Assembly (NCBI GenBank): GCA_021324975.1
Contig: JAJPIA010000111.1
Span: 1 to 38,729 of the forward strand
Origin: Bacillota bacterium
GTDB taxonomy: Bacteria; Sysuimicrobiota; Sysuimicrobiia; Sysuimicrobiales; Segetimicrobiaceae
Length of the DNA stretch: 38,729 bases
Direction of reading: 5' to 3'
Part shown: positions 5,623 through 33,484 of the stretch, piece by piece
How the letters are laid out: every line of letters starts with the position of its first letter
Numbering within the stretch: the stretch's first letter is position 1
Notes under the pieces: model-generated
What the model was told of the DNA's origin: nothing
What the model saw: the letters and a program-made list of their open reading frames with translations, nothing else
The model's database searches: none
Made by a program: the position numbers and the translations under genes

Positions 5623-7923
5623 TTAGGAAAGACATTCGCTAGGAGCATCTGCTGGGAGAGCGTCATTGAGTGAAGGTTTGACCGAGGTGGCCGGCACCCG
5701 ATGGGCGGCGGCCACCTCCGCGCACGACCCGGCGGCGGAATCGCCCGAAGTCGTCGGGACGCACTCAGCCCGAAACTGCAGCGGTCCCGCGGCCTCGATC
5801 GCCCGCCGCTCCAACACCAGCACCGGCCGCACGCGTCGCACCCAGCCCAACTCTGCCCAGCGCCGCACTCTGGCCTGCATGGTCTCGGCACCGCCCGCTG
5901 CGCTCGCCGCGACCGATGAATCAACGCGAAGGGTCACGAGGCGGCCCGCCCGCCACACCGCGCGGACCGACCGGCGATCCCCGTCCGGCGGCACGGCGAG
6001 CGCCGCCTGCACGAACTCGCGGAGCGCGCTTCGGTCTTCCGGGGTGGCTGTGACGCTTGGCGACCGGCTGGGCAGAGCGCGATCGGTTGCGCCGACCACG
6101 GACGATGCGCCGCTCTGTCCTGTGCCGGCGGCCGAACCCGGGAGGGCGCGCCGGTCTTTCACGGTGGCTGCTACGCTTGGCGACCAGCTGGGCAGAATGC
6201 GATCGGTTGCGCCGACCACGGACGATGCGCCGCTCTGCCCTGTGCCGGCGGATCGCGCCTGCGTCCACGCTGTGGCTCGGGCACGAAGCGGCGACGCGTC
6301 CTGCCGGCCGTCGGGGGGCATCGGCGTCTCGGGCGGCACTTGGCGGTGCGCCGGATCTTCGCCGGGCGGCGCACCGAGCCGGCGGCTTCGAAGATCGTGG
6401 TACACGGTGATCTCCGCGGTGCTTGGCGGCCGGGCGGGAACGAGGCCAAGATACTCGGGGCGCCGATAGTATGGAGGGCACCACAGGCGTGCCGGCGGCA
6501 CGCCCGCACTGCGGACGAGGGTCTCGTGCGAGGCCGCGTCGACGCCCTGGAGTTCCTGCGGTGAGCACAGCGGCACGCCGATCACGCCCCGGTACGGAGC
6601 CTTCCCAGAGGTGCGCGGGACGGAGTTTTGCCGCACGTCGGGCACGCCGGTCAGCCCGAGCGTCCGGCTCAGCCGCTCCGCATCACCGTCGGCCAGCGGT
6701 GCCAGGTAGATTTTTGTGACGAGGTTGGCGGCCACCGCCGCCCACCCGGCCCGACCGTAGACGTGTTCGCCCTGTGCCTCACTCTGAATCGTCGCCATGA
6801 TCGCCACGCCCCGGCTGCGCAGCGTCGCCAGGTGTTCGGCAAACGCCGGCAGTGCGCCCCACGCGGGCAATTCCTCAAACACCGCAAGCACCGGGACCCG
6901 TTCGTCTGATGCGCGCGGCCGGAGCAGAAGCGAGTTGAGATCACGAAGAAACAGGCGCCACAGCCAGTGGCATCGCTCGAGCGCGGACTGGGGAATCCCG
7001 ACAATGAGCAGGATTGGCTCTCGCCGGAGACGATCCAGCGGCAGGCGGCGATGCGGGGGCGCCGCCCGCGTCGCGGCGCACACCGCGGGATCACTCCACG
7101 CATCCAGCCGCGACGCGATGCCCTGAAGGATGCCCGCTTGGTCCTTCGGCAGCATCGTGCGGTACGCGCCGAGGTGGCGCTCCAACAGCTCGGCGCCGGC
7201 ATGCTCGTGCACGTACGCGCGCACGGCATCCGGGCCGGCCGCGGACAGCGCACGGACACGATCCAGCGCGGCGCCTCCATCGGACGCCACCGCGTAGATG
7301 AGCGTGGCGCACACGTGCCGTTCGACGCCGGCCCAGTACCCGAGATCAGGGCTTCCGTCCCGAGGCTCCTCGAACAGCATCGTGGCAATCCGCTGAGCCG
7401 CCGCTATCGTCCGGCATCCGTCGAGCGGGTTCCAGCACAGCGACGCCGCCTCCAACGGGGCGAACACGCAGACATCCCGGTCGGCGCGCTGCCAAGCTAC
7501 CGCTGCGGAGGCGAGCGTGTCGTCTTCGCCGTACTTGAGGTCGAACACGACCGCGGAGACGCCGTGGCGCGCGGCTTCGAGCAAAACCGGCATCGTGACG
7601 GTACTCGTCTTCCCCGCGCCGGTGAGCCCTACGACCAACACGTGGCGGGCCAAGGCGGCGTTGGGCAGCCGGAGCAGCGGCCCGCACAGCAACCGCCGCA
7701 GCGGCGCAGACCGCCTCCCCACGAGCGCGCGGGCGACTCCCCGCGGCCCGGCGTAGCCGAGAGGGAACCACGCGTCGCGCCCTCGCCGCAATCGCCGTAG
7801 GTCCGCGCGCCCCGCGAACCGTGCGCCGCGCCGCCCGAGCAGGCTTGGAGCGTCGTCGCGCAGGAGCCGCCACGCGGCCGCCGCCGCGGCGAGCACCAGC
7901 GCACCCCACCACGCGAGCGCCAT
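5623..7923 (-). CDS. virD4: VirD4/TraG-like type IV coupling ATPase
   Basis: A 766-residue P-loop ATPase of the VirD4/TraG coupling-protein class, the inner-membrane subunit that presents substrates to a type IV secretion channel. It has one N-terminal membrane segment (residues 2-20), Walker A GLTGAGKTS (K105), a Walker B-like AVFEELPAWG (E350/E351, Glu where Asp is usual) and the ATIQSEAQ segment typical of motif III. The C-terminal third is a low-complexity linker with two copies of a 40-residue repeat (about residues 558-635), then a small domain with a WRAGRLVTLRV core. ATG 7923 is preferred over 7953 because GGTGAG lies six bases upstream. It is the last gene of the secretion operon. 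Confidence 0.82.
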   Translation of the reverse strand: MALAWWGALVLAAAAAAWRLLRDDAPSLLGRRGARFAGRADLRRLRRGRDAWFPLGYAGPRGVARALVGRRSAPLRRLLCGPLLRLPNAALARHVLVVGLTGAGKTSTVTMPVLLEAARHGVSAVVFDLKYGEDDTLASAAVAWQRADRDVCVFAPLEAASLCWNPLDGCRTIAAAQRIATMLFEEPRDGSPDLGYWAGVERHVCATLIYAVASDGGAALDRVRALSAAGPDAVRAYVHEHAGAELLERHLGAYRTMLPKDQAGILQGIASRLDAWSDPAVCAATRAAPPHRRLPLDRLRREPILLIVGIPQSALERCHWLWRLFLRDLNSLLLRPRASDERVPVLAVFEELPAWGALPAFAEHLATLRSRGVAIMATIQSEAQGEHVYGRAGWAAVAANLVTKIYLAPLADGDAERLSRTLGLTGVPDVRQNSVPRTSGKAPYRGVIGVPLCSPQELQGVDAASHETLVRSAGVPPARLWCPPYYRRPEYLGLVPARPPSTAEITVYHDLRSRRLGAPPGEDPAHRQVPPETPMPPDGRQDASPLRARATAWTQARSAGTGQSGASSVVGATDRILPSWSPSVAATVKDRRALPGSAAGTGQSGASSVVGATDRALPSRSPSVTATPEDRSALREFVQAALAVPPDGDRRSVRAVWRAGRLVTLRVDSSVAASAAGGAETMQARVRRWAELGWVRRVRPVLVLERRAIEAAGPLQFRAECVPTTSGDSAAGSCAEVAAAHRVPATSVKPSLNDALPADAPSECLS
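6021..6251. repeat. Two tandem 120-bp repeat units inside the virD4-like gene
   Basis: About 111 bp starting at 6021 recur starting at 6141 with a period of exactly 120 bp. The core from 6076 to 6117 is almost identical to 6196-6237. Because the period is a multiple of three, it encodes two 40-residue protein repeats, each carrying TGQSGASSVVGATDR. The edges of the units are more diverged than the core. Confidence 0.85.
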
Positions 7924-7930
7924 GACGCGC

Positions 7931-8509
7931 TCACCGTACATATGGAATACCATAGCCCTCGGGAACCGCCTGCACGGTCACGGAACACCACGCACCGTTC
8001 CACCGGATGAACAGAAACACCGCGTACCCGTCGCGCTCGTACTCCGCCAGATCGCTGACCCATGGCGCCGCCGTCTTCAGAGCCTCCGCGCCGGCCGACC
8101 CGGGCGTCCGCAGGGAGGCGATGACGGCTGCCAGGGCGCCCGGCACCGGGGCCTCGCGGGACGCGGCTTCGAGCGCGGCGGCAGCCTTGGCCGCCGGGTT
8201 GGCCGTGGGCGGTCCCGTGATCAACATCACGATCGCGCCCGGACCGGGACAGCCGTCCCAGAAGTACGGAACATAGGGTGCGACCGCGATGTCCACTGGT
8301 GCACCCGGCCAGTGCCGGGTCACCTCGACGATCCCGGACGCCGCATCCACGAGGGAGAGCACCGCCGCAGTACTCCCGGCCGGCAGCGCCGCGGCCCTAC
8401 CGGCGCACGGGCCGATGCCTCCGCAGGGGCCGCCGTGCGGCGGCGCGGCGAGCGCAAGCGCGGTCGCGGCAATGCCGGTGGCAATCTTCGCGGTGCGCCG
8501 GGCTCCCAC
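7931..8509 (-). CDS. Exported protein of the secretion operon, unknown function
   Basis: A 192-residue protein with a basic N-terminus and an Ala-rich hydrophobic stretch (signal peptide or anchor, ending near residue 22), then a Gly/Cys-bearing segment GGPCGGIGPCAG and a C-terminal half with GYAVFLFIRWNGAWCSVTV, which suggests a small beta-rich domain. The four cysteines could form two disulfides outside the cytoplasm. GTG 8509 has GAGG seven bases upstream; GTG 8515 is an equally in-frame alternative. It lies between the VirB6-like and VirD4-like genes with gaps of 13 and 7 bases, so it is co-transcribed and probably part of the apparatus. I do not recognise the family. Confidence 0.65.
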   Translation of the reverse strand: MGARRTAKIATGIAATALALAAPPHGGPCGGIGPCAGRAAALPAGSTAAVLSLVDAASGIVEVTRHWPGAPVDIAVAPYVPYFWDGCPGPGAIVMLITGPPTANPAAKAAAALEAASREAPVPGALAAVIASLRTPGSAGAEALKTAAPWVSDLAEYERDGYAVFLFIRWNGAWCSVTVQAVPEGYGIPYVR

Positions 8510-8522
8510 GATCACGCCTCGA

Positions 8523-9560
8523 TCACGACGCCCGGCCCGTCGGCGGCATTACCGTCGCCTCCTGGGCTCCACCGGTAACGCTCCAAACGCCGCCTGCTGC
8601 CGAGTATCCCGTGGCCACGTTGGGCTCGAGGGGGCCGGCGGCCGACCCCTCGATCCACGCGGCGGCGTGACGCTGAAGCCACAGCGGGCCGCCGAAGAGG
8701 CCCTGGCCGAACGCGACCCCTTCAATGAACTGGCCGACCAAGTGCTCGGCGCGAAGCATCGCGTAGACGCCGATGCCCGTCCCGATCAGCATGAGGAACA
8801 GATAGCCGGCAAGATCGAAGACGAGCAGCCCGACGGCCTGCGCCGGGTTCGCACCGGGTTGCGGGAACCCTTCCCGAACGCCGGACGCGACTTGCTGCAC
8901 CGGCACGATCACCGCGAGGTACAGTACCGCGGCGTGCAGGATGCGGACACAAAACACGACGAGCGCCGTGCGCACGACCACCACGGCCCAGCGGGCCGCC
9001 CACCGCTGCGTCGCCGGCGCCGCGAGGAGGGCCATCGCAAGCGGCGCCAAGAAGATGGCGAGCAGCAATGTCAGCTGCGCGAAGAACAGGATCGCGAGGT
9101 AGACCATGATGCCGGCCGCCAGCAAGAGGATCCCGAGCAGCAACCCAACCAGCATCGCGCCGAGCGCCCAGGGATAGGTGAACCAGGGACCGGCGGCGTC
9201 GAAGAACGCGCCCATCTGCGGCACGAGCCAGCTGCGCGTGAACTGATCCCAACTCTGCCCGATCAGGCTGTTGAGCACGGCGGTCCCGGCGTCGCGGAAC
9301 GTATCGAAACCGAGCACGATCGCGTGCGTCACCGGCCCCACCGCCGTGAGGAGCCCGCCCGCAACGATCAACCGCCCGAAGGCTTCGATCAGGTCGAATT
9401 GACGGCCGGGCCGGCTGGCCGCGGCGACGTGCCCGAGCCATAGCACGGTGAGCACGGCCCACGCGAGCCGTGACATCGACGCCGTCGCGCCGGTCGAGAC
9501 CAACCACGCCTCGAGGGTGGTGAAGACGTCCGCGATCGCCTGCTCGATACCGGCTGTCAC
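8523..9560 (-). CDS. VirB6/TrbL-like polytopic membrane protein
   Basis: A 345-residue protein with about six hydrophobic segments (roughly residues 30-48, 63-82, 130-162, 164-186, 198-222 and 250-275) and a hydrophilic Gly/Ala-rich tail. This layout, and the position downstream of the VirB4-like gene, fit the VirB6/TrbL channel component of type IV secretion systems; sequence similarity to well-studied members is low. The start is GTG 9560, with no strong ribosome-binding site visible 14 bases after the previous stop. Charged and aromatic loops such as GFDTFRDAG and QSWDQFTRSW lie between the first and second membrane groups, where VirB6 proteins have their periplasmic loop. Confidence 0.72.
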   Translation of the reverse strand: MTAGIEQAIADVFTTLEAWLVSTGATASMSRLAWAVLTVLWLGHVAAASRPGRQFDLIEAFGRLIVAGGLLTAVGPVTHAIVLGFDTFRDAGTAVLNSLIGQSWDQFTRSWLVPQMGAFFDAAGPWFTYPWALGAMLVGLLLGILLLAAGIMVYLAILFFAQLTLLLAIFLAPLAMALLAAPATQRWAARWAVVVVRTALVVFCVRILHAAVLYLAVIVPVQQVASGVREGFPQPGANPAQAVGLLVFDLAGYLFLMLIGTGIGVYAMLRAEHLVGQFIEGVAFGQGLFGGPLWLQRHAAAWIEGSAAGPLEPNVATGYSAAGGVWSVTGGAQEATVMPPTGRAS

Positions 9561-9574
9561 GAACGCACACGGGC

Positions 9575-10630
9575 TCAGTACAGCGCGGCAAGCGGTAGTT
9601 CGACGTCGGGCTGTTCGTCGGCGCCCGCCAGCATCTCGGTCAAGGCCTGGCCGCCGGCGCGGGCCGCGTCCATGAGCCCGAGCCGCGCGTCGAGCCGCTG
9701 GCGGTCCTGTTCGGCGTCGCGCGCCGTCTGAACAGCGGCCGTCTCGCCCAGCGCCGCCAGTTGCGTGCTCACCGATGCCATCTGTTGGGCGAGGACGGCG
9801 AGACGATCCGCCAACGCGGTGCTGAAATCCGCCTGCGCCTGCATCCCTGCGCCCATGCCGGCGACCAGCATCTCGATCCCGGCGCGCGCGCTCGGGAGTT
9901 GCGGCGCGCCTTGGAGCAGGGCGGCCGCGGCCTGCCGCGCCGCGAGCGCGGCCGCGGGAACGGTGGGATCAGCTGTCACCGCGGCCGCGGCTTGCGAGGC
10001 AACGGCCGACGCCGCATCCTGGCGAACGTCCGCGGCGTCGACCGCGGCGGATGTGACGGCCACGTCGATTGCGTCGTGCGCCAGCTGCGGGCTCGCCGTG
10101 ACGTACTGCTGATGAACGGCCGCCGGCGTGCCGGGCGGCACTGTCCCTTGCCACTGCGCGATGGTGGCGGCGAGCGCCTGGCGCAGCGCGTCCGGTAGTC
10201 CGGCGATGGTCCCCATCAAACTGGAGAGGTCGACGCCGTTCGGCAGATATCCCGGCGCCGCCCAGATGATCTCCCCGATCGCCTGGCGAACCGCGTCGTC
10301 CGCGCTGCGAATCCAGGCGTCCAATTCCTGCAGCATCTGTTGAAGGCCCGTGATGTCGGCGGCGAGATCGCCGGCAACCACCGGCAGGCGCGGTAGCGCC
10401 GCGGCCTCAACGGCATCCCGCCGAGGCGCAGGCGCGCCGGACGCGGCGCTCGCGGGCTCACCCGTCAGCACCATGACCGCGGTTGCCACCGCCGCGACGA
10501 GTCCTGCCACAGCCATCGCGCCCGCCGTGGGCGCCGTGGAGACGGCGCGGATCGCGCGCGCCGTGGACGCGGTGGGGACGGCGCAGATCGCGCGCCGGCC
10601 GGCGATAAGGATAGCTGGAGACACTTTCAT
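9575..10630 (-). CDS. VirB5/TrbJ-like exported helical protein
   Basis: A 351-residue protein with a long basic, Ala/Thr-rich N-terminus leading into one hydrophobic segment (about residues 36-56, then EPASAAS), consistent with export or anchoring. The rest is Ala-rich amphipathic helix with a C-terminal coiled-coil-like region (LADRLAVLAQQMASVSTQL through EQDRQRLDARLG). Position between VirB4 and VirB6 and the helical composition resemble VirB5/TrbJ, the pilus-tip or adhesion subunits, but the match is by architecture only. ATG 10630 is preferred because GGGAGG lies nine bases upstream; ATG 10639 would have the same GGGAGG touching it. The N-terminal CAVPTAST / RAVSTAPT segments look internally duplicated. 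Confidence 0.6.
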   Translation of the reverse strand: MKVSPAILIAGRRAICAVPTASTARAIRAVSTAPTAGAMAVAGLVAAVATAVMVLTGEPASAASGAPAPRRDAVEAAALPRLPVVAGDLAADITGLQQMLQELDAWIRSADDAVRQAIGEIIWAAPGYLPNGVDLSSLMGTIAGLPDALRQALAATIAQWQGTVPPGTPAAVHQQYVTASPQLAHDAIDVAVTSAAVDAADVRQDAASAVASQAAAAVTADPTVPAAALAARQAAAALLQGAPQLPSARAGIEMLVAGMGAGMQAQADFSTALADRLAVLAQQMASVSTQLAALGETAAVQTARDAEQDRQRLDARLGLMDAARAGGQALTEMLAGADEQPDVELPLAALY

Positions 10631-10699
10631 CGGCGTCATCCTCCCGTTCTCGGCTCGACGCTTTGGGCGCGACCTCGTGCCGGGGCACGGACGCGGCCA

Positions 10700-13168
10700 T
10701 CATCCGCGGCGCCGGCGCGCGGCCAGTTGTTGGACCGCCGGCCAGATGCCGATATGGGCGGCGAGGCGTTCTCGTTCCAGGCGCTCCTCCGCGGTGGTGG
10801 TCGCGATGACGTAGTCTTCGGGGATGTCCCTGACGACGGCCACGCCGCCTTCGCGTCCTTCCAGCAGATCCAAAACGATGAGCACCTCGTTGAAGGCGCC
10901 GCGGTGCTGCCCGAGGCTCTTCCACAGCGCGCGATACTGATCGCTCAGGTGCAGGGCGTGCGCGACGCGGTCCACGTTCGCCGTGCGGGCCAGCACTTTC
11001 ATCGGCGCGTTGTCCAAGATGCCCTGCGCGTGCTCGCTTTCGAAGTCTGAGAGCCGCTGGCTGATCGCCATGACGCCCGCGCCGAATTTCCGAAAGCGGC
11101 GGAACATCCCCACCAGCGACTCGGCCGCCACGGGGTTGAGGAGCGCGGTCCAGGTCTCGTCGCTGACCACGTATTTCGGGCGCGCCGCCTCGCTGCGGAT
11201 GCGCCGGTAGACGAGGTGGTTCGCGAGCAGCGCGGCGATCGGCGCGAGCTCCGGGTAGTCCGCGTCGAGCCCCTCGGTGTCGAGACAAACAATCGGCGTG
11301 TGCAGGTCGACCGTGGACGGCCGGTCGAGAAGATGCGCGTACAGGCCGCGGCCGCTCCATCGTTCGAGCCGCCGCGCGATGCCGCGGGCGGCGGCCCAGT
11401 CCTCCGGCCCCGCCTCGTGGCCGCCGACCTGCTCGAACGTGCGAAGCGTATGCACGAGATCACGCAGCATGACCTCCCCGCCCGCGGCGCGCTCGTAGGT
11501 CTGGCGGATCGCCGCTTCGAGCACCGCGAGCTCCTGCCGGTTCAAGCCGGCGCCGGGGTCCACGACCATGAACGCGACGAGGCTGCGGAGCAGCGCGAGC
11601 TGCGCGGGATCCGGCTCCGTCTCGCCGGGGAGCAGCTCGAACGGGTTCACGGCCACACCGGCGCCCGGATCGAGGCGCACATGCTGCCCACCGTACAGCT
11701 CGCAGAACGGGCGGTACGCGCCTCCTTTGTCGACGATTACGATGACCGGGTCGAGGGCGAGCAGGTGGGAGAGCCACGCGATGGCAAAGTGCGTCTTGCC
11801 GCCCCCGGACTCGCCGACGACCACCGCGTTCCATGACGGCAGCCGTGGGTCGAACGGGTCGAGGGCGACGACGCTGTCGCCGCGGGTGAGCAACGGGCAC
11901 ACCGGCCGTGCGGCGCCGCGCCACGGCGCGTACGAGGGGATAAAGTCCGCGGCGTTGCTGCTCAGCATCCGAAGCAGTCGCTCATTCGGGAGCCCGCTGA
12001 ACGGCGCCAGCTGGAAAAACTGTCGCCGCAGCGCCACCGATTCGATGCGCGCGTCCGCGCCGGGAATCTGGCGAAAGGCGTCGAGCGCGTGGCGGGCGGC
12101 TTCCCGCGCCGCCTCGGGCGTGCGCTCCTGCAGCACCACGGCGACGCCGACGCGCATCACGCGCTCCCCGGAGACCTGCATGAGGTCCAGCGCGCTCGCA
12201 ACCTGGCGCTCGACGGCGCGGGCGTTGGAATCGCCGCCGTCTTGGGCCCGCACCGCCTGACGGCTCAGGCGGCTCTTGAGTTCGAGCCGCTTCAATTGAT
12301 CGGAGCGCGGGTCATTCCACGCCTCCATGAGGATCCACCGAGGGCCGCGCAGGGCGAGCAGCGGGGCGAGGATGTTTGGCGACGTCGGGCGGTCCGGAAG
12401 GACGTCGAGCGCGACAACGGCGTGCGCAAACCCATCCATCCAGAGAAAATCCCAGCGCCGATACAGGTCGGACCGCGCCACCACGGTCCGCACCGACGCT
12501 CGCCCGAGACCAGGCCAGGACGCCAAGAGGCGGCGCGGCAACTCCAGCTCCTGGCTGGCCGCCGGCACGGGCGGCGGTCCCCCGAGGCGCTTGCGGCCGG
12601 GGTTGAAATATCGCCAAATGGTCGCCACGAGCCCCTCGTCCGTCATCGGCGACGCCCGGAACCCGGCACGCCCGGCGTGCACCACGAGCGCATCGCGGAG
12701 GAAGCGCAGTTCCTCCAGGTGACGGGCGTACTCCGTGCCGTCCACCGGCGTCCACCAGCGCCTGGTGCGACGCCGAGGATGGTATGAGAGATCGAAGAAA
12801 AGGCGATAGTTGGTCAGCTGCTCGCGTGCGTGCGCTTCGCTCCACGCGGCCACGCGCCGGTGGTGCAGCTCGCGAACCAGCGGCTGCGAAGAGCGGCAGC
12901 CGTCCGCGAACGCCCGCAGCAGTGCGGTGTAGTCGGCATGCACTTCGACGACCACGCGGAGGCACTCGCCTTCGGGGACCGCGGCGCCGAGCATCGTGCG
13001 GAGGTGATCGTTGCTCCTTGCGAGTTGCGCGGCGTCCCACGCCTCAGTGCCGGGAAGCGTGACCTCGAAGCCGAGCCGGTAGCTCCCGTCGCGCAGGACC
13101 ACGGCACCATCACGCACCGTCCAGTATGGGAGCTCTCGCGTCAAGTTCCCCGCAGGGTCGGTACGCAT
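10700..13168 (-). CDS. virB4: VirB4/TraC-like type IV secretion ATPase
   Basis: An 822-residue ATPase that powers assembly and transfer in type IV secretion systems, normally bound to the cytoplasmic face of the membrane. The N-terminal half is the VirB4 CagE-type domain (LPYWTVRDGAVVLRDGSYRLG, WFxxLSYHP-like FDLSYHPR). The C-terminal half has Walker A GESGGGKTH (K458), DKGGAY, the Walker B-like KYVVSDETW (about residue 668), and the AISQRLSDFE segment followed by LDNAPMKVL, typical of this family. ATG 13168 lies 10 bases after the stop of the VirB3-like gene; upstream in-frame starts would overlap that gene and were rejected. It is the most conserved gene of the operon and anchors its identification. 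Confidence 0.92.
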   Translation of the reverse strand: MRTDPAGNLTRELPYWTVRDGAVVLRDGSYRLGFEVTLPGTEAWDAAQLARSNDHLRTMLGAAVPEGECLRVVVEVHADYTALLRAFADGCRSSQPLVRELHHRRVAAWSEAHAREQLTNYRLFFDLSYHPRRRTRRWWTPVDGTEYARHLEELRFLRDALVVHAGRAGFRASPMTDEGLVATIWRYFNPGRKRLGGPPPVPAASQELELPRRLLASWPGLGRASVRTVVARSDLYRRWDFLWMDGFAHAVVALDVLPDRPTSPNILAPLLALRGPRWILMEAWNDPRSDQLKRLELKSRLSRQAVRAQDGGDSNARAVERQVASALDLMQVSGERVMRVGVAVVLQERTPEAAREAARHALDAFRQIPGADARIESVALRRQFFQLAPFSGLPNERLLRMLSSNAADFIPSYAPWRGAARPVCPLLTRGDSVVALDPFDPRLPSWNAVVVGESGGGKTHFAIAWLSHLLALDPVIVIVDKGGAYRPFCELYGGQHVRLDPGAGVAVNPFELLPGETEPDPAQLALLRSLVAFMVVDPGAGLNRQELAVLEAAIRQTYERAAGGEVMLRDLVHTLRTFEQVGGHEAGPEDWAAARGIARRLERWSGRGLYAHLLDRPSTVDLHTPIVCLDTEGLDADYPELAPIAALLANHLVYRRIRSEAARPKYVVSDETWTALLNPVAAESLVGMFRRFRKFGAGVMAISQRLSDFESEHAQGILDNAPMKVLARTANVDRVAHALHLSDQYRALWKSLGQHRGAFNEVLIVLDLLEGREGGVAVVRDIPEDYVIATTTAEERLERERLAAHIGIWPAVQQLAARRRRG

Positions 13169-13178
13169 CCCGGCGGCC

Positions 13179-13499
13179 TTACCGCACGTACGGGTTGGCG
13201 TCGACATCGGACCCGACGGTATAGGCGTGCGGTTCACCCAGGTACTCGAGCAGGTGGCGCAAGTAGTGGCGCGGGGCGCGCTCACGTACGCGGCGCCACA
13301 CGGCAAAGAGCGCGCCGGTCATGAGCAACGAGGCGCCGGCTTCCGCGCGCGGCCAGCCGAACAACCCGCCCACGACGAGGTCGCTGACGCGCGACAGGAT
13401 GACGAAGGCCACGCCCAACCCGAACCAGTCTTCGAGCTCCACGCTGAGCAGCGTCACCGGGGCGTCGAGCTTACGGTAGACGGGATGCTGCGGCAGCAT
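13179..13499 (-). CDS. VirB3-like membrane protein
   Basis: A 106-residue protein starting MLPQHPVYRKLDAPVTLLSV with two hydrophobic segments (about residues 28-45 and 53-67) and a basic C-terminal part (WRRVRERAPRHYLRHLLEYL). The VYRKLxAPVTLLGV-type N-terminus and the location directly before the VirB4 gene are typical of VirB3/TrbD/TraL proteins, which partner VirB4 in the inner membrane and are sometimes fused to it. It lies six bases after the pilin-like gene and ten before virB4, so translation is probably coupled. Assignment rests on both motif and gene order. Confidence 0.78.
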   Translation of the reverse strand: MLPQHPVYRKLDAPVTLLSVELEDWFGLGVAFVILSRVSDLVVGGLFGWPRAEAGASLLMTGALFAVWRRVRERAPRHYLRHLLEYLGEPHAYTVGSDVDANPYVR

Positions 13500-13505
13500 C
13501 GACGC

Positions 13506-13832
13506 TCACCCGTGAATCATGCGGATGATCTGACCACCGAAGAAGAGGACCACCGAACCGATGATGACCCAGAGTGCGTTGCGCACGCCGTTCCGGTGAT
13601 CTGCGACGATCACGGCGCCGGCCACCAGCAAGGCCGCGGTGGCGTAGGCGAGCCCGAACGCACCCGACAGGCTCGAGGCGGCTTCGTTGAACAGGTTCGT
13701 CAACGGCGCGAAAAGATCGCCGCCGGAGGCTGTCTGGGCCCCGGCGGCGGGTGGATATGCCGCGAGCCCGGCCGCCGCGCCCGCGTTCGCTACTACCATC
13801 GCGGCTGCACGCCGCATCGCCCGGCGCGTCAT
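13506..13832 (-). CDS. VirB2/TrbC-like pilin precursor
   Basis: A 108-residue protein with an N-terminal export signal (residues 1-32, cleavage probably at AAGAQ-TASG) and two later membrane segments (about 58-76 and 86-103) separated by a short polar loop ADHRNGVRNA. This is the standard layout of VirB2/TrbC major pilins. Its ATG (13832) is one base from the stop of the VirB10-like gene and its stop is six bases from the VirB3-like gene, as expected for translational coupling. There is no cyclisation motif that I can identify. Confidence 0.72.
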   Translation of the reverse strand: MTRRAMRRAAAMVVANAGAAAGLAAYPPAAGAQTASGGDLFAPLTNLFNEAASSLSGAFGLAYATAALLVAGAVIVADHRNGVRNALWVIIGSVVLFFGGQIIRMIHG

Positions 13833-13833
13833 A

Positions 13834-15132
13834 TCAGGACGCCTCCGTCACGAGGATGACGAGCGGCGCCCCCGCGGGGAGCTCGCTCGTCGCGATCGGC
13901 CCCGAGGGGCCGCCACGCGGCGCCACGGTTCCCGCCAGCGACGATGCAAGATACGCCCACGGCGGCGCGGCCTGGCCCACGGTCGCCTGTCCCCAGCTCC
14001 CGCTGAGCGTCAGGCCCTGCTGTGCAAGCGCCTGCCCGTACGCGGCGGTGGCCTGGGCAGCGGCGATCAACGCCGCCGCGGCGGCCTGCGGCTGCCGTAA
14101 CGTGGTTCGGCCGGCAAGCCCGGGAACCAGATGATCGGGATCCAGGGCGACGCCGTGCGTCGTGCTCCGCCCCTGGGTCAGCGTGAAGCGAATCTCGATG
14201 CGCCCATCCGGACTCAACGTGGCTTCTCCGAGCCACGCCGCGGCCGGATGCTCGGTCTCCGCGATCGCGGGTGACGGCGTCCCGCTCGACGCGACGAGCA
14301 CGCCCGTGGCCAACCGGGCGGTCAGGCGCGCGCCGACGGTCCAGTGTGCGTCCTCTCCGGGGCTCTGCGCACCGTCTGCCGGCGCAGCCGCGTTGCCCCG
14401 CCCGGCCTGCTCCGGCGGGGGTGCGTCGCGCTCATAGACGAGCGGCGACCCCGGCGGGGTCGCCTCGGGAACGGCGGCCGCGCGCAACGCTCCCATCGTC
14501 GAGGACGTGTCCGGCTCCTGATCACGATTGAATACCAGCGGGCTGCGAGGCGGGGCGGGGTCCTGCGCGGACGCGGGGGGCATCACCGTCCATGCCTGGG
14601 GGACCGGCGGCAGCGTGGGCAGGCTGGCTACCGGGCTCGCTACCGATGGAAGCCCGCCGCGGCCCGCGTGCGCGACAAGCGGCGGGCGCCCGGCCTCGGC
14701 GATGAACGAGCGCAGCATCAACGCGTGCGATGCCGGCGGTGCGACTCGGCGGGCGTTCGGCACGGGCGCGTGGTGGCGGACGAGCGAGGACGCGGCCAGT
14801 GAGAGCAGGATGAGGCCGGCCAGTCCCAGCGGAATCGCGGCCGCGACATGGCGTTTGGCGATCAGCCGGTCTCCCGCATCACTCTCGTACTCGCCCCACC
14901 AGAACAACCGCGCGCGCAACACGCGCCACCACCGCGAACGAGCGAGCGCACGCTCGCTGTCGAGCCGGATCTGCGTCCCGGACAGCTCCGCCAGGACGTG
15001 GGAGTAGACGCTCGGAGCTTCGACGGCCAGCCGCGCGAGGACAGACGGCACGGCGCTCGGCGTGAGATCTACGTCGTCGCCGAGCACCTCGCGAATCCGC
15101 TGCGCCGCGCCTGGTGTGAGCGTGATCTCCAT
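13834..15132 (-). CDS. VirB10/TrbI-like protein, divergent
   Basis: A 432-residue bitopic protein: a cytoplasmic N-terminal part of about 95 residues, one membrane segment (about 97-115), a long Pro/Ala-rich linker, and a C-terminal domain beginning near WTVGARLTARLATGVLV and ending LPAGAPLVILVTEAS. VirB10/TrbI proteins have the same order, including a 'hold-open' domain start of the type P-A-G-T-x-I-x-A-x-L-x-T-G and an end of the type VPAGTPFYVFV. The linker carries two copies of a short motif (SPLVFNRD and SPLVYERD). It is the first gene of the operon. Only about 280 bases of linker-plus-domain homology can be argued, so the call is structural, not certain; VirB8, VirB9 and VirB7 partners were not seen. 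Confidence 0.62.
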   Translation of the reverse strand: MEITLTPGAAQRIREVLGDDVDLTPSAVPSVLARLAVEAPSVYSHVLAELSGTQIRLDSERALARSRWWRVLRARLFWWGEYESDAGDRLIAKRHVAAAIPLGLAGLILLSLAASSLVRHHAPVPNARRVAPPASHALMLRSFIAEAGRPPLVAHAGRGGLPSVASPVASLPTLPPVPQAWTVMPPASAQDPAPPRSPLVFNRDQEPDTSSTMGALRAAAVPEATPPGSPLVYERDAPPPEQAGRGNAAAPADGAQSPGEDAHWTVGARLTARLATGVLVASSGTPSPAIAETEHPAAAWLGEATLSPDGRIEIRFTLTQGRSTTHGVALDPDHLVPGLAGRTTLRQPQAAAAALIAAAQATAAYGQALAQQGLTLSGSWGQATVGQAAPPWAYLASSLAGTVAPRGGPSGPIATSELPAGAPLVILVTEAS

Positions 15133-18492: not shown

Positions 18493-18570
18493 GCCCCCAT
18501 CGTCTAGGCCGGCCCAGGACATCGGCCCTTCAAGCCGGTAACGCGGGTTCGAATCCCGCTGGGGGCACCA
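18493..18570 (+). tRNA. tRNA-Glu (anticodon TTC), CCA encoded
   Basis: A complete cloverleaf: acceptor arms GCCCCCA (18493-18499) and TGGGGGC (18560-18566), discriminator A 18567, encoded CCA 18568-18570, a D arm with GTCT and AGGAC, an anticodon stem TCGGC/GCCGG around the loop CCTTCAA, and a T arm GCGGG-TTCGAAT-CCCGC. The anticodon TTC and the GTCTAG/AGGAC D-arm pattern identify glutamate. The base before the anticodon (position 33) is C instead of the nearly universal U. Confidence 0.93.
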
Positions 18571-26888: not shown

Positions 26889-28244
26889 TCACTCGCTTCT
26901 GCCGCGGCGCCGCCCCGCAAGTCCCCGCAGCGACGCTCCCACGGCCTCCACCAGCCGGCCGAGCTCGTCGTCAGACACCACGAGCGGGGGCGCCATGATC
27001 ACGGGATTGTCGACGAAGCACAGGACCTCGCGGCCGCGGAGGTCCGCCTCGAGCCGGCGCAGGCCCCGCGCGGACAGCCGGGCCGGAGCACGCGTGTGGA
27101 CGTCATCGACGAGCTCGACGGCCGCCATGAGCCCGATGCCGCGGACGTCGCCGACGACCGGACAACCTGCGAGCTCCGCACGGAGACCGTCGAGAAGGCG
27201 GCGGCCCAGGTGCGCCGCGCGGGCCACAAGATGCTCGTCCTCGAGTATCCGCAGCACCGCGAGCGCGGCCGCACACGCAGCCGGGTGTCCACTGTACGTA
27301 AAGCCGTGCGGGACCGCGCGGCCGGCCAGCCGCTCCGCAATGTGGCGGCGCATCACCACCGCGCCGAGGGTCTGGTAGCCGGCCGTCATCCCTTTGCCCA
27401 GCACCAACAGGTCGGGCACCATGTCCCAATGGTCGCACGCGAACCGTCGCCCGCTCCGGCCCCATCCGGTGACGATCTCGTCGGCGACAAGCAGCACCCC
27501 GTAGCGGTCGCACAGCGCCCGCACCGCCGGCCAATACGGGTCCGGGGGCACGATGACGCCGCCGGGCCCCGGCACCGGCTCCGCGAACACGGCCGCAACC
27601 CGATCGGGGCCCGCGCGGACGAGCACGTCTTCGAGCGCGCCGACGCATCCCAGCGTGCACGCGGGCTGCCCCGAGCAATGGGGACAACGATACCGGTACG
27701 GGACCGGCGCGAAGCGGACGCCCCGGAGGCCCGGGCCGACGCCGCGCAGCAATCCCCGGTCGGGATCGCTGAGCGACAGGCCGGCGTACGTGCCGCCGTG
27801 CGCCGAGTATTCCCGGCTGACGATCATCCGGCGCCGGCGATCGCCGCCGGCGTAGTGGAACAGCCGCGCGAACTTGAGCGCGGTGTCCACCGCCTCGGAG
27901 CCGGTCGGCACGAGCGCCACGCCGTCGAGGTCCCCGGGCGCCAGCGCGCCGATGCGGGCGGCGAGTTCCTGCGCCACGGGCGCCACGGCGTCGGTGAGCG
28001 GCGCAAACGACAACGTGCGGAGCTGTGCGCTCACCTCGGCCACGATCTCGTCACGGCCGTATCCGAGCAGGACCGCCCAGAGCCCGGACCGCGCATCCAA
28101 ATAGGCCTGCCCGCGCGAGTCCCAGACGCGGCTGCCACGACCGCGCACGAGCCGCAACGGGCCGCCCGCGCGGGCCAGCGCGGTCTGCACCTGCCCCTGG
28201 TACCACAGCGACGGGGACCTAACATCAAACGCGCGCGGAGGCAT
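26889..28244 (-). CDS. Class III PLP-dependent aminotransferase
   Basis: A 451-residue fold-type I aminotransferase of the omega-amino-acid/4-aminobutyrate group. It contains YLDARSGLWAVLLGYG, PTGSEAVDTALKFAR, SREYSAHGGTYAG, the PLP-contacting VLLVADEIVTGWGRSG and LVLGKGMTAGYQTLG with the Schiff-base lysine K284, followed by GFTYSGHPAACAAALA. An internal cysteine cluster (YRCPHCSGQPACTLGC) is found in a subset of these enzymes and may bind a metal. ATG 28244 is used; the in-frame GTG at 28310 would nearly touch the divergent gene. Amino donor and acceptor cannot be told from sequence. Confidence 0.88.
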   Translation of the reverse strand: MPPRAFDVRSPSLWYQGQVQTALARAGGPLRLVRGRGSRVWDSRGQAYLDARSGLWAVLLGYGRDEIVAEVSAQLRTLSFAPLTDAVAPVAQELAARIGALAPGDLDGVALVPTGSEAVDTALKFARLFHYAGGDRRRRMIVSREYSAHGGTYAGLSLSDPDRGLLRGVGPGLRGVRFAPVPYRYRCPHCSGQPACTLGCVGALEDVLVRAGPDRVAAVFAEPVPGPGGVIVPPDPYWPAVRALCDRYGVLLVADEIVTGWGRSGRRFACDHWDMVPDLLVLGKGMTAGYQTLGAVVMRRHIAERLAGRAVPHGFTYSGHPAACAAALAVLRILEDEHLVARAAHLGRRLLDGLRAELAGCPVVGDVRGIGLMAAVELVDDVHTRAPARLSARGLRRLEADLRGREVLCFVDNPVIMAPPLVVSDDELGRLVEAVGASLRGLAGRRRGRSE

Positions 28245-28312
28245 CGCCGCCGCAGTGTTCTCCCCGAGCGCCGGCCGATCCCGTCTGCGCGGGGGGACCG
28301 GGAGGAGCACCC

Positions 28313-30274
28313 ATGCCCCCGCCGAAACAACGTCCGCGCATGCCGGGTCCTCAAGAAATCGAGATCGTCTGTGACATCCTCGTCGTCGGTGCGGGACTCG
28401 GAGGATGCGCCGCGGCGCTCCGGGCGGCGCGGCTCGGGCAGCGTGTCTGTCTGGTGGAGGAAACCGGGTGGCCCGGCGGGCAGATCAGCACCCAGGGCGT
28501 GTCCTCGCTCGACGAACACCGCTACATCGAGACGTTCGGCGGCACGGGCTCCTACTACGCGCTCCGCAACGCCATCCGCGACTACTATCGCACCCAGTAC
28601 GCGCTCAGCCCGGCGGCGGCGGCCGCGCCGCAGCTGAACCCAGGCAACGCGTGGGTGAGCCGCCTGTCGTTCGAGCCCCGCGCGGGCGCGGCGGTGCTGG
28701 AAGCGATGATGGCCGGGCCGCACGACCGCGGCGAGCTGCAGGTGTTCTACCACACGCGGGCCGTCGCGGCGGAAGTCTACGACGCGCGCGTGGCGTCGGT
28801 GTTGACCCGGCACCGGGACAACGGGACGTTCATCCGCTTCCGGGCCGGCTTCGTGCTCGACGCCACCGATCTCGGCGACGTCCTCGTCTACACGGCGACG
28901 GCCTACGCTCTGGGCCAGGAGTCGCGAGGAGAGACCGGGGAGCCGTCGGCCCCGGAGGTCCCCAACCTTGCCTGTGTGCAAAACTTCACCTTCCCCGTGG
29001 CCGTGGAGTACTGTCCGGGCGAGAACCATACGATCACGAAACCGGACGGGTACGAACGGAATCGCGAGGCGCAGCCCTACACGCTCGTCTACCGTCCCTG
29101 GCTTCCGGCGTCCACGCCCTACAAGATGTTTGCGACGGCGCCGGGCGCCGGCGGTCCGTTTTGGACGTACCGACGGGCGCTCGACGCGCACAACTTCACC
29201 GACCCGCGCGTGCCGCGGGACGTGAGCATCATCAACTGGACGAGCAACGACTTCCGCGGCGGCACGGTCGTCGACCGGCTGCCGGACGAGCAGGACGCGC
29301 GGTACCGCGAGGCGCGGTTGCTGACTCTCGGCTTTTTGTACTGGCTGCAAACCGAGGCGCCGCGCGACGACGGCGGCACCGGCTATCCCGAGCTTCGCCC
29401 CCGGCCGGACATGATGGGGAGCGCCGACGGCCTCTCGCAGATGCCGTACGTGCGCGAGGGCCGGCGCCTCAGAGCACTCTACACGATCATCGAGCAGGAC
29501 ATCGCCGCGCACACGCATCCGGAGTCCCGGGGCGCGCGTTTCGCGGACGCCGTGGGCATCGGATTCTACCCGATCGATCTGCACGGCTGCGGCGAGCGGA
29601 CCACCGATATCGACACCAAGCCCTTTCAGATTCCGCTCCGCGCCATGATCCCGGTCCGCACGCTCAACGTACTGCCGGCCGCGAAGAACATCGGGACCAC
29701 GCACATCACCAACGGCGCGTACCGGCTCCACCCTGAAGAGTGGGCCGCCGGCGACGCCGCCGCCGCGGTGGCCGTGTTCTGCCGGCGGACCGGGATCTCA
29801 CCGCAGGCCCTCGCCGCCCGACCCGACCTGCAGCGCCGCCTGCAATTGCTCCTGCTCGACGAGCAGATCCCGATCTACTGGTACGACGACGTCCCGCTCG
29901 GCCACCCCGCGTTTGTGGCCACGCAGTTGCTGGCCGTGGAGGGCGTCTGGGAAGGCGGCGATGCCGACCTGCACTTTGGACCCGACCTCCCGGTGCGCAC
30001 GGACGAGGGCAAGCGCCGGATCGCGGCCGCCGCGGCGAGCATCGCACGGTGGGGCGGTCCGGCGGATCCCGAGTCCCCGGCGCTGCAGCCGGCGCCGGAG
30101 GACGACGTGCTCCCGCTCCGCCGCGACGCGGCGGCGACGCTCGTTGCGCTCGGCATCACCGGAGCGCGACCCACGGGCGAGGAAGACGCGCAGATCATCA
30201 CACGGGCCGAACTGGCACGCACCCTCGGAGCGCTCGTGCGCACCGCGATCGAGCGTTACACTCCTGCCTCCTAG
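28313..30274 (+). CDS. FAD-dependent oxidoreductase (FAD_oxidored family)
   Basis: A 653-residue flavoprotein of the FAD_oxidored group (PF12831). The N-terminal Rossmann motif CDILVVGAGLGGCAAALRAA and the CLVEETGWPGGQ segment bind FAD. Further conserved pieces are FVLDATDLGDVL, LPAAKNIGTTHITNGAYRLHPEEWAAG and the acidic end. ATG 28313 is supported by GGGAGGAG six bases upstream. It is divergent from the aminotransferase, with 68 bases between the starts, so the two may share a control region. The C-terminal 150 residues have no clear domain. The natural substrate is unknown; the TAG stop is also the first triplet of a dispersed hairpin repeat. Confidence 0.85.
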   Translation: MPPPKQRPRMPGPQEIEIVCDILVVGAGLGGCAAALRAARLGQRVCLVEETGWPGGQISTQGVSSLDEHRYIETFGGTGSYYALRNAIRDYYRTQYALSPAAAAAPQLNPGNAWVSRLSFEPRAGAAVLEAMMAGPHDRGELQVFYHTRAVAAEVYDARVASVLTRHRDNGTFIRFRAGFVLDATDLGDVLVYTATAYALGQESRGETGEPSAPEVPNLACVQNFTFPVAVEYCPGENHTITKPDGYERNREAQPYTLVYRPWLPASTPYKMFATAPGAGGPFWTYRRALDAHNFTDPRVPRDVSIINWTSNDFRGGTVVDRLPDEQDARYREARLLTLGFLYWLQTEAPRDDGGTGYPELRPRPDMMGSADGLSQMPYVREGRRLRALYTIIEQDIAAHTHPESRGARFADAVGIGFYPIDLHGCGERTTDIDTKPFQIPLRAMIPVRTLNVLPAAKNIGTTHITNGAYRLHPEEWAAGDAAAAVAVFCRRTGISPQALAARPDLQRRLQLLLLDEQIPIYWYDDVPLGHPAFVATQLLAVEGVWEGGDADLHFGPDLPVRTDEGKRRIAAAAASIARWGGPADPESPALQPAPEDDVLPLRRDAAATLVALGITGARPTGEEDAQIITRAELARTLGALVRTAIERYTPAS

Positions 30275-30299
30275 TGCAGCATCGCCAAAGGGCGACAAG
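30272..30299. repeat. Dispersed hairpin repeat, family 2, copy D (diverged)
   Basis: Reads TAGTGCAGCATC, eight variable bases, then GCGACAAG, matching the family 2 layout TAGTGCAGCRTC-N8-GCGACRAG with the same spacing. The hairpin is TCGCC-AAAG-GGCGA. Sequence differs from copies B and C but pairing is retained. Its TAG is the stop codon of the FAD-dependent oxidoreductase. Confidence 0.45.
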
Positions 30300-30593
30300 A
30301 GCAAGCGCGAGCCGGAGGGGTCTCGCGTGAGCGGGCGTTCGACGCCCGCGATCTTTGGTGCGAGCGTGGAGCTCCGTTACTTGCAATCCTGACGGATCGA
30401 GTCCAGCAGTTGCCAGAGGCGTCGGGCGTGGAGCGAAGGGGAGGCCCGTCCGGCTCAACCTTTGGCGAACATCCGCGAGCATGCACGAGACGCCCGGCGC
30501 AGCTTGCAGCGCGCCGAGGCCCCGGTCCGCGTCGACAATATCGGGACCGAGGGCCCGCGATTGCTCGCCGTCGCCGCGGGGCGCGCGGAGATG
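30275..30593. other. Intergenic region between convergent genes
   Basis: No gene is supported. It holds the rest of the family 2 repeat, a GC-rich hairpin at 30331-30349 and otherwise featureless GC-rich sequence. Confidence 0.5.
30331..30349 (+). terminator. GC-rich hairpin after the FAD oxidoreductase gene
   Basis: GCGGGCGT and ACGCCCGC form a perfect 8-bp stem around a TCG loop, 57 bases after the stop. It is followed by GATCTTT, a weak T-rich stretch. Located between convergent genes, it may end transcription on either strand. Confidence 0.45.
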
Positions 30594-30935
30594 TTAACGC
30601 TCGAGGTATTCCTTCCGGAGCGGATAGAAGACGTCCAGGACGCGCGCCGGGCCGCGGACCGCCCAGGCGGCATGCCGCGTGCCCCCCGGGATCACGTACG
30701 CGTCGCCCACCCGGAGCGCTCGGCGCTCGTCTCCGATCTGCATCTCGATCTCGCCCGACACCACGACGCCCAGCTGCTCGTGCGGATGCTCATGGAGCTG
30801 CACGCTCGATTCCGGTGCCAGGTCGACACAGGTCAGCATCACGTGCTCGCCGGCGAGCGGGCGCATCGTGACGCCCGGCGCGATTTGCTTGCCCGGGAGC
30901 GCGTCGAGCGACGCAAAGACATGCTCCTTGCCCAT
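30594..30935 (-). CDS. Cupin-domain protein
   Basis: A 113-residue single-domain cupin. ATG 30935 has GGGGAGGA five bases upstream; in-frame starts further upstream lack signals. Motif 1 reads QLHEHPHEQLGVVVSGEIE and motif 2 reads VIPGGTRHAAW, giving three histidines and a glutamate suited to bind a divalent metal. VGDAYVIPGG precedes the second motif. Small cupins of this type occur as dioxygenases, isomerases or sugar/ligand sensors, and the substrate cannot be inferred here. The gene stands alone. Confidence 0.85.
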   Translation of the reverse strand: MGKEHVFASLDALPGKQIAPGVTMRPLAGEHVMLTCVDLAPESSVQLHEHPHEQLGVVVSGEIEMQIGDERRALRVGDAYVIPGGTRHAAWAVRGPARVLDVFYPLRKEYLER

Positions 30936-31158
30936 GATTGTCCTCCCCGGCCGCGGCCGTGGATGGGCCGCCCGGCCATGTGATCTCCGGGTTCGCGAAC
31001 CGCTCGGGCGTCCCTGCCCGCTCATGCATGCGCCGGGCGGATACGTGACGGCGCCGTGGGTGGACACTGGCGCGGCGCGATGCGAGCGGCCGGAGAAGGA
31101 ATTGCTCCGCGCCCCGCGAAGTCGCGGGTGACATCTTGTCGCGAAGGAGGTGAACGCG

Positions 31159-31230
31159 GTGGCACTCGTCGCATTTCTCGCACTCGTCGGCATCACACTG
31201 TGGGCAACCGGCCACCTCATCGTCCGCTGA
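31159..31230 (+). CDS. 23-residue membrane peptide (copy 1)
   Basis: GTG 31159 follows GAAGGAGGTGA (31143-31153) at ideal spacing and encodes only 23 residues before TGA 31228-31230: a single hydrophobic helix (ALVAFLALVGITLWATG) ending HLIVR. The length suits one membrane span with a basic C-terminus. It is below normal gene-calling limits. A second micro-ORF 190 bases downstream ends ATGHMILR, matching ATGHLIVR here, which strongly supports both being real and related. Function unknown; similar sized peptides act as subunits or regulators of membrane complexes. Confidence 0.6.
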   Translation: MALVAFLALVGITLWATGHLIVR

Positions 31231-31418
31231 CCGCGACCCGGCGGAGTACCAAAACGTCTATGTGTCGATGAGGGGGGCATTATTTGTCCTCCTCATCGGC
31301 GTTCTCGAGGGCGCCGGTGACGCTTTGGGATCGGGGGAGAGCGCCGAGGGAACGACGTTTGCGCCCCGGCCGTCCGGGGGAAAGACCTGGGTGGATGGAA
31401 CGAGGGGGGGATGGTTCG

Positions 31419-31484
31419 GTGGTCGTCTTCGTCTTGTTGGCGCTTCTCATACTCGCCGCCACGGGCCACATGATCCTCCGCTAG
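31419..31484 (+). CDS. 21-residue membrane peptide (copy 2)
   Basis: GTG 31419 follows a G-run (31404-31410) by eight bases and encodes 21 residues, VVFVLLALLILAATGHMILR after the initiator, ending at TAG 31482-31484. It is a single hydrophobic helix and shares the ATGH(L/M)I(V/L)R end with the peptide at 31159. ATG 31395 is an alternative start that adds eight residues. The TPR protein gene starts 17 bases after its stop, so the two are likely co-transcribed. The stretch between the two peptides (31231-31418) holds a similar GGGGGG plus hydrophobic segment at 31271-31310, possibly a decayed third copy. Confidence 0.55.
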   Translation: MVVFVLLALLILAATGHMILR

Positions 31485-31501
31485 GCAGGAGTGGAGGGAC
31501 G

Positions 31502-32305
31502 ATGAACATCCGGTGGAACACCGTCATCCTCGTGGCCTGCGCGGTGCTCACGCTCCAGGCGCGCGCGCCGTCGATCGTCGCGGCTCAGTCCTCGCCGGGT
31601 GCGGCGTCCGGCCAACCGTCCAACCAGATCGAATCCGTGACGCTGGCCAAGGGCATCAAATCGGCGTCGCTGTTCGGGAGCGGCACGGTCACCGCGGTCG
31701 ACCCAGCGACGACGTTCGTGAATTCCGACCTGCCCTACGCGATCGTGCGCATCAAGGGGCTGGCGCCGGACACGACCGTCGCGCTGCGTCTGAGCGACCC
31801 GACGGGCGAGGCGTACATGGTGCAGGCGAAGATCCCCCCGCACAAGGGCAACCCCAAGACGTTCGACTTCGCGGCGCCGATCTACATCTTGGGCACGGAC
31901 CTCGAGTCGCACACAGGGACCTGGCACCTGCAGGTCCTGATCAATAACACGCCGGCGAACGAGACGGCATTTCAGTGGCAGGCCGCGACGCCCGCGGACG
32001 TGGCGAAGATCAAGAATGCGGTGGACGCGTCTCCGCTCAGTGCGGACCTGCACTGGCGCTACGGCGCGGCGCTCGCCCTGGTCGGGCGCCTCTCCGACGC
32101 GATCACCGAACTCCAGCGGTCCATTGGCCTCGACCCGCAGTACGCGCTGTACTATATCAGCCTGGGCCGTGTGTATGAAGCGCAGCACCGCGTGACCGAT
32201 GCCACGGCGCAGTTTCAGAAGGCGCTTAACGTGCACGGGAGCGCGTACGACTCCGTGTTTCAGGGTTGGGCGCGCGCCGATCTGTCCCGCCTCCAGGGAC
32301 ATTAA
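31502..32305 (+). CDS. Secreted TPR-repeat protein
   Basis: A 267-residue protein with a signal peptide (residues 1-28, ending SIVAAQSS), a central beta-rich domain (about 45-160, including TTFVNSDLPYAIVRIKGL and HTGTWHLQVLINN) and C-terminal tetratricopeptide repeats (about 175-265: DLHWRYGAALALVGRLSDAI, then YALYYISLGRVYEAQHRVTD). The middle domain resembles an immunoglobulin-like fold of unknown ligand. ATG 31502 has GGAGTGGAGGG upstream; an in-frame GTG at 31262 would swallow the micro-ORF region and was rejected. Located outside the cytoplasm, it probably acts as a scaffold. Confidence 0.78.
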   Translation: MNIRWNTVILVACAVLTLQARAPSIVAAQSSPGAASGQPSNQIESVTLAKGIKSASLFGSGTVTAVDPATTFVNSDLPYAIVRIKGLAPDTTVALRLSDPTGEAYMVQAKIPPHKGNPKTFDFAAPIYILGTDLESHTGTWHLQVLINNTPANETAFQWQAATPADVAKIKNAVDASPLSADLHWRYGAALALVGRLSDAITELQRSIGLDPQYALYYISLGRVYEAQHRVTDATAQFQKALNVHGSAYDSVFQGWARADLSRLQGH

Positions 32306-32354
32306 CCCGGCTCGGTCATCCACTGAGCGCGCGAACGCAGCTCACTAGGCCCAG

Positions 32355-33480: not shown

Positions 33481-33484
33481 GCCC

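Follow-up and report, generated by a model that had tools for sequence, protein, structure and literature searches.

A vertically inherited chromosomal type IV secretion operon without an adjacent relaxase gene in the Segetimicrobiaceae and its possible role in DNA export

Contig JAJPIA010000111.1 of genome assembly GCA_021324975.1 (family Segetimicrobiaceae, order Sysuimicrobiales, phylum CSP1-3/Sysuimicrobiota) encodes a compact type IV secretion system (T4SS) in one operon of eight minus-strand open reading frames (ORFs; 15132-5623), with products denoted, in order, VirB10-like, VirB2, VirB3-like, VirB4, VirB5-like, VirB6-like, an exported protein (unk8), and VirD4. The operon has a fixed position on the chromosomes of the family, whose members are uncultured soil bacteria, is vertically inherited, and lacks an adjacent relaxase gene. 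A second conserved locus in the same genomes encodes a MOBC-type candidate relaxase of the Replic_Relax family beside another VirD4-like protein. Our best explanation, in which we place about even confidence, is that the operon is a domesticated conjugation machine, fixed by vertical descent, that exports DNA with the processing functions encoded in trans.

The window, i.e., the whole stretch of DNA analyzed (38,729 nt), is the complete contig C97 of genome G000, a metagenome-assembled genome of 4.43 Mb in 144 contigs that is 96% complete. Because the window is a complete contig, sequence beyond it is not visible in the G000 assembly. Relatives were sampled as 12 genomes of the family and 31 other genomes of the order. 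Omp85 is present in 12/12 family genomes and, on this basis, the host of the operon is a diderm.

A fixed chromosomal address and vertical descent

VirB4 was detected in 11 of the 12 family genomes, and the genome without it is 64% complete. In all 11 VirB4-bearing genomes the operon lies between the genes for LonB and an MrfA-type helicase or adjoins at least one of them. A rearrangement in G006 leaves the virB10 gene by LonB and the rest of the operon about 65 kb away by MrfA, with both halves retained. LonB is present across the order, but in the other families sampled neither MrfA nor DUF3536 adjoins it. Outside the family, VirB4 was identified in four of the 31 genomes sampled from the order, three at 46-48% identity (G015, G017, and G029) and one that is more distant (G036). 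The original prediction, made from the window alone, described a compact, possibly specialized system that is divergent from well-studied models, and it left room for a relaxase or integrase gene just past the window. Longer contigs of relatives (about 410 and 242 kb) extend beyond the region equivalent to the window and show housekeeping genes there instead. Neither a relaxase nor an integrase is linked to the operon, which is not part of a mobile element and looks specialized, and the description stands in these respects.

Trees of nine genes, taking in both loci and their neighbors (VirB4, VirD4, VirB6, unk8, LonB, MrfA, Replic_Relax, the second VirD4, and M48), recover the same genus groups, with some nodes weakly supported. 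Ratios of non-synonymous to synonymous substitution rates (dN/dS; NG86, G000 versus G002) range from 0.056 to 0.36 among the operon genes. VirB3 has a value of 0.056 and VirB4 values of 0.085-0.098 (0.085 for G000 versus G002, where LonB has 0.074), while unk8 has values of 0.16-0.18 and VirD4, at 0.36, is the fastest-evolving gene of the operon. Purifying selection acts strongly on VirB4, VirB3, and VirB2. The operon genes are open within the genus, and the operon is conserved over four genera. Collectively, the fixed position, the congruent trees, and purifying selection indicate that the operon is a vertically inherited chromosomal trait and not an integrative and conjugative element (ICE).

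A candidate relaxase gene at a second locus

A longer Replic_Relax gene (PF13814, MOBC-type) lies beside a VirD4-like gene at the second conserved locus in 12/12 family genomes. Its product is about 290 amino acids (aa) in length and has a winged-helix-like N-terminus and conserved PDA, ExDxGT, and K residues that resemble the PD-(D/E)xK pattern; the G000 homolog, on contig C64, matches Replic_Relax above the Pfam cut-off (2.8e-22). MOBC relaxases have relatives among the PD-(D/E)XK restriction endonucleases, and the prototype TraX has a winged-helix domain (PMC12857230). Neighbors of the module include housekeeping genes for TatD, a DAO oxidoreductase, and an M48 protease. Of the 11 family genomes covered for this feature (all but G011), seven have a gene for single-stranded DNA-binding protein (SSB) directly beside the module and one has it at a distance of about 8 kb; in G000 and G005 the contig stops before such a gene is encountered, and none was found nearby in G007. 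In G036, the T4SS, SSB, second VirD4, and Replic_Relax genes are contiguous in one cluster. We also considered whether the second VirD4 might be part of a pilus-type operon, but rejected this in view of its neighbors (SSB, Replic_Relax, and housekeeping genes). The module in G000 occupies C64:39567-42033 (L094), where no SSB gene is encountered before the contig end and the VirD4-like gene is frameshifted, possibly through an assembly error.

Given this second locus, the original characterization of the system as relaxase-free holds for the window and the operon locus but not for the genome. With a Replic_Relax gene and a VirD4-like gene present in trans, DNA transfer is still the leading reading. 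The search for other relaxase families covered MOBP (PF03432), found in 0/12 family genomes, and MOBF (PF08751), found in one, with neither found in G000; it did not extend to MOBQ, MOBV, MOBH, or MOBT.

The existence of a Replic_Relax gene in the genome might suggest an ordinary integrated conjugative element that is still mobile and has its relaxase and integrase elsewhere. However, the operon does not show the hallmarks of a self-transmissible element (linked relaxase, integrase, and variable location), and each of the two loci keeps its position while their trees agree, hence vertical descent; this explanation is disfavored and extremely improbable. A decaying remnant left behind by a conjugative plasmid or ICE after its integration would account for the missing relaxase gene at the site, the loss of the operon virD4 in G001, and the frameshift in the second VirD4-like gene of G000. 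Such a remnant is strongly disfavored, however, in that the genes are open with low dN/dS within the genus, are conserved over four genera, and keep one address across the family, and neither an integrase nor plasmid genes were found in the window. Synteny, trees, and dN/dS thus lead us to reject both the ICE and the remnant explanations.

Gene content of the operon

The eight ORFs of the original prediction are present, with intergenic gaps of 1, 6, 10, 60, 14, 7, and -23 bp along the operon. Orthologs keep the same order in relatives, which indicates that these are genes and not chance ORFs. The operon comprises the following:

13834..15132, minus strand: VirB10-like protein, 432 aa, with a cytoplasmic N-terminus, one transmembrane segment (~96-114), a Pro-rich linker, and a C-terminal domain
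13506..13832, minus strand: VirB2/TrbC pilin, 108 aa, with a signal sequence and two hydrophobic helices (PF04956 2.7e-9, above cut-off)
13179..13499, minus strand: VirB3-like inner-membrane protein, 106 aa, between VirB2 and VirB4, with one transmembrane segment
10700..13168, minus strand: VirB4 ATPase, 822 aa, with Walker A GESGGGKT at residue 452
9575..10639, minus strand: VirB5-like exported helix-rich protein, 354 aa, between VirB4 and VirB6
8523..9560, minus strand: VirB6/TrbL-like polytopic membrane protein, 345 aa, with five transmembrane-like segments by hydropathy
7931..8515, minus strand: unk8, a conserved exported protein, 194 aa, with two invariant Cys and a C-terminal VPEGYGIPxVR, in which VPEGYGIPxV is near-invariant
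5623..7953, minus strand: VirD4/TraG coupling ATPase, 776 aa, with an N-terminal transmembrane segment and Walker A GLTGAGKT at residue 109

The labels first given to these genes proved to be of unequal strength. Judged by profile matches, the family identities of VirD4, VirB4, and VirB2 are firm. VirD4 matches PF02534 (T4SS-DNA_transf; 4.4e-28), PF12696 (2.2e-16), and PF10412, all above cut-off, as well as TrwB and Cag5 in the PDB. VirB4 matches PF19044 (P-loop_TraG; 2.3e-21) above cut-off and VirB4/TrwK in the PDB, while its matches to TIGR02746 (the F-type TraC model; 1.1e-51) and TIGR00929 (8.5e-30) are both under the curated cut-offs. Its start is most likely the ATG at 13168 rather than the upstream TTG at 13306, which is less likely because it overlaps virB3. 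VirB2 is also kept in other families. The VirB6-like protein matches PF04610 (TrbL) at 0.0021, under cut-off. Labels for VirB3 and VirB5 are putative and rest on position, topology, and homologs in Thermus: the VirB3-like protein is homologous to the product of the Thermus gene in the VirB3 position (hhalign 92%), with a TraL match at only 0.3, and the VirB5-like protein is weakly homologous to the Thermus protein in the VirB5 position (hhalign 81%), with no match in Pfam and nothing credible in a PDB profile search. The VirB10 label is likewise putative and draws on architecture, gene order, homology with the Thermus plasmid protein at the equivalent locus (hmmsearch 3e-38, hhalign 99.5%), and TrbI matches that three relatives give at weak scores (0.004-0.006). 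No profile-profile match to R388 TrwE or F TraB was found by hhalign, and PDB profile searches with the VirB10-like, unk8, and VirB5-like proteins returned helical-bundle and low-complexity matches and nothing credible.

A set of 40 window ORFs, which takes in essentially all plausible genes, was scanned against Pfam and revealed no relaxase, integrase, VirB8, VirB9, VirB11, or lytic transglycosylase. The absences initially proposed are consistent with these scans, except that VirB7 is too small to exclude; VirB8, VirB9, and VirB11 were looked for in the window and not in the rest of the genome. The window therefore shows only the VirB10-like member of the diderm envelope set of the MPF-T (mating-pair formation class T) or type IVA systems (VirB7-VirB9-VirB10, VirB8, and VirB11). 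Neither plasmid genes nor a recognizable effector gene were seen in the window. Elsewhere in the window, metabolic genes are encoded at 26889-38693 (class III aminotransferase, FAD oxidoreductase, cupin, LysR regulator, and family 5 solute-binding protein), an 8-oxoguanine glycosylase-like gene is at 33485-34474, and a tRNA-Glu gene at 18493-18570 lies 3 kb from the operon, in a window where the scans revealed no integrase.

Among the operon parts, only unk8 does not belong to a known kind; it has no Pfam or NCBIfam match, no credible PDB match, and no match among R388 or F proteins. Homologs of unk8 were identified (E<=0.001) in 16 of 291 genomes, every one within the taxonomic order of the operon, and 15 of these 16 genomes have unk8 in an operon of this type. 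Stand-alone paralogs are encoded in G001 and G005 (L080:790-1782 and L081:9043-9948); these have extended C-termini and two conserved exported-looking neighbors, with no VirB4 alongside. For unk8 and the VirB10-like protein, AlphaFold2 models from three-sequence alignments were unusable (mean pLDDT of 40 and 36). Our guess is that unk8 is a periplasmic or surface accessory.

Plasmid relatives and probable loss of the adjacent relaxase gene

The operon has its counterparts in the MOBC-type conjugation apparatus carried by Thermus and Deinococcus plasmids and by some relatives, to which it is related. The nearest plasmid relatives are Thermus plasmids, which share the gene order virB2-virB3-virB4-(virB5)-virB6-virD4 and encode VirB4 that is up to about 33% identical over 95%; among them, Thermus aquaticus pTA69 has been interpreted as a conjugation plasmid (PMC4605624). 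In the VirB4 tree, sequences of the order form one clade (98/96) separate from Thermales, with several long branches. Among 386 genomes searched with a VirB10-like profile, the only one outside the order with a match was G061, whose VirB4 groups with that of T. thermophilus. A second T4SS in G005 (G005:C11, L038) is divergent, belongs to the sister type, and has a small Replic_Relax gene; this genome also has a third VirB10-like copy (G005:C28). The Myxococcus stipitatus plasmid pYRE (L119), typed as non-mobilizable, encodes a T4SS with a related VirB4 and a VirD4-like gene, and may be a further branch of the same system.

A small Replic_Relax-like gene adjoins the virB10-like gene in plasmid loci of Thermus, Deinococcus, Allomeiothermus, and Oceanithermus, as it does in the sister loci of G029, G036, and G005:C11. 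Its products have a conserved vEyDxGxY...K signature. PF13814 scores on the plasmids are mostly under the curated cut-off, while two of the plasmid genes beside virB10-like genes are annotated as 'replication-relaxation family,' one of them on a plasmid typed as MOBC and conjugative. A profile built from nine such proteins scored the G036 protein at 2e-19 although this was left out of the profile, and at E 0.05 it had no match in the window, in any family operon, or in G015 and G017. The presence of this gene beside virB10 in plasmid and sister loci, but not in family operons, suggests that the absence of the relaxase gene is most simply a derived loss. This argues against the initial idea of an ancestral-type system.

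DNA export and competing explanations

If the operon exports DNA, the Replic_Relax protein encoded in trans, with SSB, is predicted to nick and bind DNA, which a VirD4 would then pass to a channel of VirB3, VirB4, VirB6, and VirB10. VirD4 and VirB4 would power export, VirB2 and VirB5 would form a pilus, and single-stranded chromosomal DNA would leave to neighboring cells or the medium. Domesticated or chromosomal T4SSs that move DNA have precedents in the archaeal Ced/Ted systems (PMC9905601) and the gonococcal genetic island (PMC4207684). We propose more tentatively that the family has a permanent, vertically inherited system for DNA exchange, domesticated from a conjugation machine and encoded on the chromosome in two loci, one comprising the T4SS and its VirD4 and the other the MOBC-like protein and the second VirD4, with SSB in most genomes.

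Several observations weigh against DNA export. In G001, a genome of the same genus, a major facilitator superfamily gene (L025:13491-14822) replaces the operon virD4, and neither a VirD4-like nor a Replic_Relax gene was detected in G015 and G017 (94% and 72% complete). These three genomes nevertheless retain the seven-gene core B10-B2-B3-B4-B5-B6-unk8 without the operon VirD4. The second VirD4-like gene of G000 itself carries a frameshift, membership in PF13814 does not prove nicking activity, and the SSB, which adjoins the module in some genomes only, could be the housekeeping one. Moreover, the two loci are unlinked, and so their cooperation would rest on family-wide co-occurrence, which is confounded by ancestry, and on one contiguous arrangement.

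Retention of the core where VirD4 is lost or undetected suggests that it may function with no coupling protein, so that it could instead export proteins or form a pilus. The main rival explanation is therefore a protein-secreting or surface-pilus T4SS in which VirD4 is optional and unk8 would be either part of the surface structure or a substrate. Constraint is lowest on VirD4 among the operon genes, and unk8 is specific to this T4SS clade. Moreover, the Bordetella Ptl and Brucella VirB systems lack a type IV coupling protein, and co-option has been argued for the chromosomal T4SSs of Patescibacteria, most of which have no relaxase (PMC12102498). However, all other family genomes keep VirD4 and also the second VirD4-like/Replic_Relax module, the nearest relatives look conjugative, and no recognizable effector gene was found in the window. 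We consider this explanation somewhat unlikely.

T4SSs can also be domesticated for import of DNA, as in Helicobacter ComB. An uptake apparatus like archaeal Ced would be compatible with a VirD4 that can be dispensable (G001, G015, and G017), and Ced/Ted are chromosomal VirB2/4/6 systems without a relaxase, of which Ced imports DNA (PMC9905601). However, Ced/Ted have been described with homologs of VirB2, VirB4, and VirB6 only, whereas the operon adds VirB10-, VirB5-, and VirD4-like parts, and the second VirD4-like gene with Replic_Relax suggests DNA processing on the export side. Uptake is, in our assessment, quite improbable, and export of DNA by a domesticated conjugation machine is the explanation that we prefer.

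Comparison with known systems and implications

Like the T4SSs of pTA69, pTTJL1802, T. thermophilus NAR1 plasmid 3, and Oceanithermus pOCEPR01 (typed MOBC), the operon has the VirB2-VirB3-VirB4-(VirB5)-VirB6-VirD4 order, a homologous VirB10-like protein, and a related VirB4. Those systems are plasmid-borne, whereas the operon has a chromosomal address. In most of them the virB10-like gene is divergently oriented and has a small Replic_Relax gene as its neighbor, while in the operon virB10 is co-directional and lacks this neighbor. Lytic transglycosylase and AAA/T4SS-ATPase genes follow in the Thermus plasmids; the operon lacks these but has unk8.

The archaeal Ced/Ted systems are likewise conjugation-derived and chromosomal, with no relaxase in the locus and a VirB2/VirB4/VirB6 core, but the operon differs in its VirB10-like, VirB5-like, and VirD4 components, in Replic_Relax encoded elsewhere, and in its diderm host, and Ced imports DNA. 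The likeness is one of general features, and orthology is not claimed. The T4SS of the gonococcal genetic island is also chromosomal, releases single-stranded DNA, and keeps its relaxase and coupling protein together in a separate operon, much as the candidate relaxase and VirD4-like genes share the second locus. It is, however, an F-type system of about 20 T4SS-related proteins with a MOBH relaxase on one acquired 57-kb island, in contrast to the small set, MOBC-type gene, and two unlinked family-wide loci described here. Chromosomal T4SSs of Patescibacteria are widespread and mostly without a relaxase, and their VirD4 is often unlinked (PMC12102498); these are related to the MPF-FATA class of monoderms, are essentially without VirB10, and belong to a lineage that differs from the host of the window. 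Domestication of the Ced kind is said not to be reported elsewhere (PMC9905601). The arrangement described here is new in being family-wide and chromosomal, in missing the relaxase gene from the locus, and in combining a small diderm set with unk8.

If this explanation holds, these systems would form a clear evolutionary series that can be tested, from a plasmid system with an adjacent relaxase gene, through a chromosomal one whose candidate relaxase is encoded in trans, to a core without a coupling protein. With only a VirB10-like protein in the locus and no recognizable VirB7, VirB8, VirB9, or VirB11, the operon suggests that a diderm T4SS under selection may need few envelope parts, and unk8 represents a new conserved exported component added to those of T4SSs. 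If chromosomal DNA is exchanged, the archaeal Ced system would have a counterpart in bacteria, and a lineage of diderm bacteria would have made a housekeeping trait out of conjugation machinery, as hyperthermophilic archaea have done.

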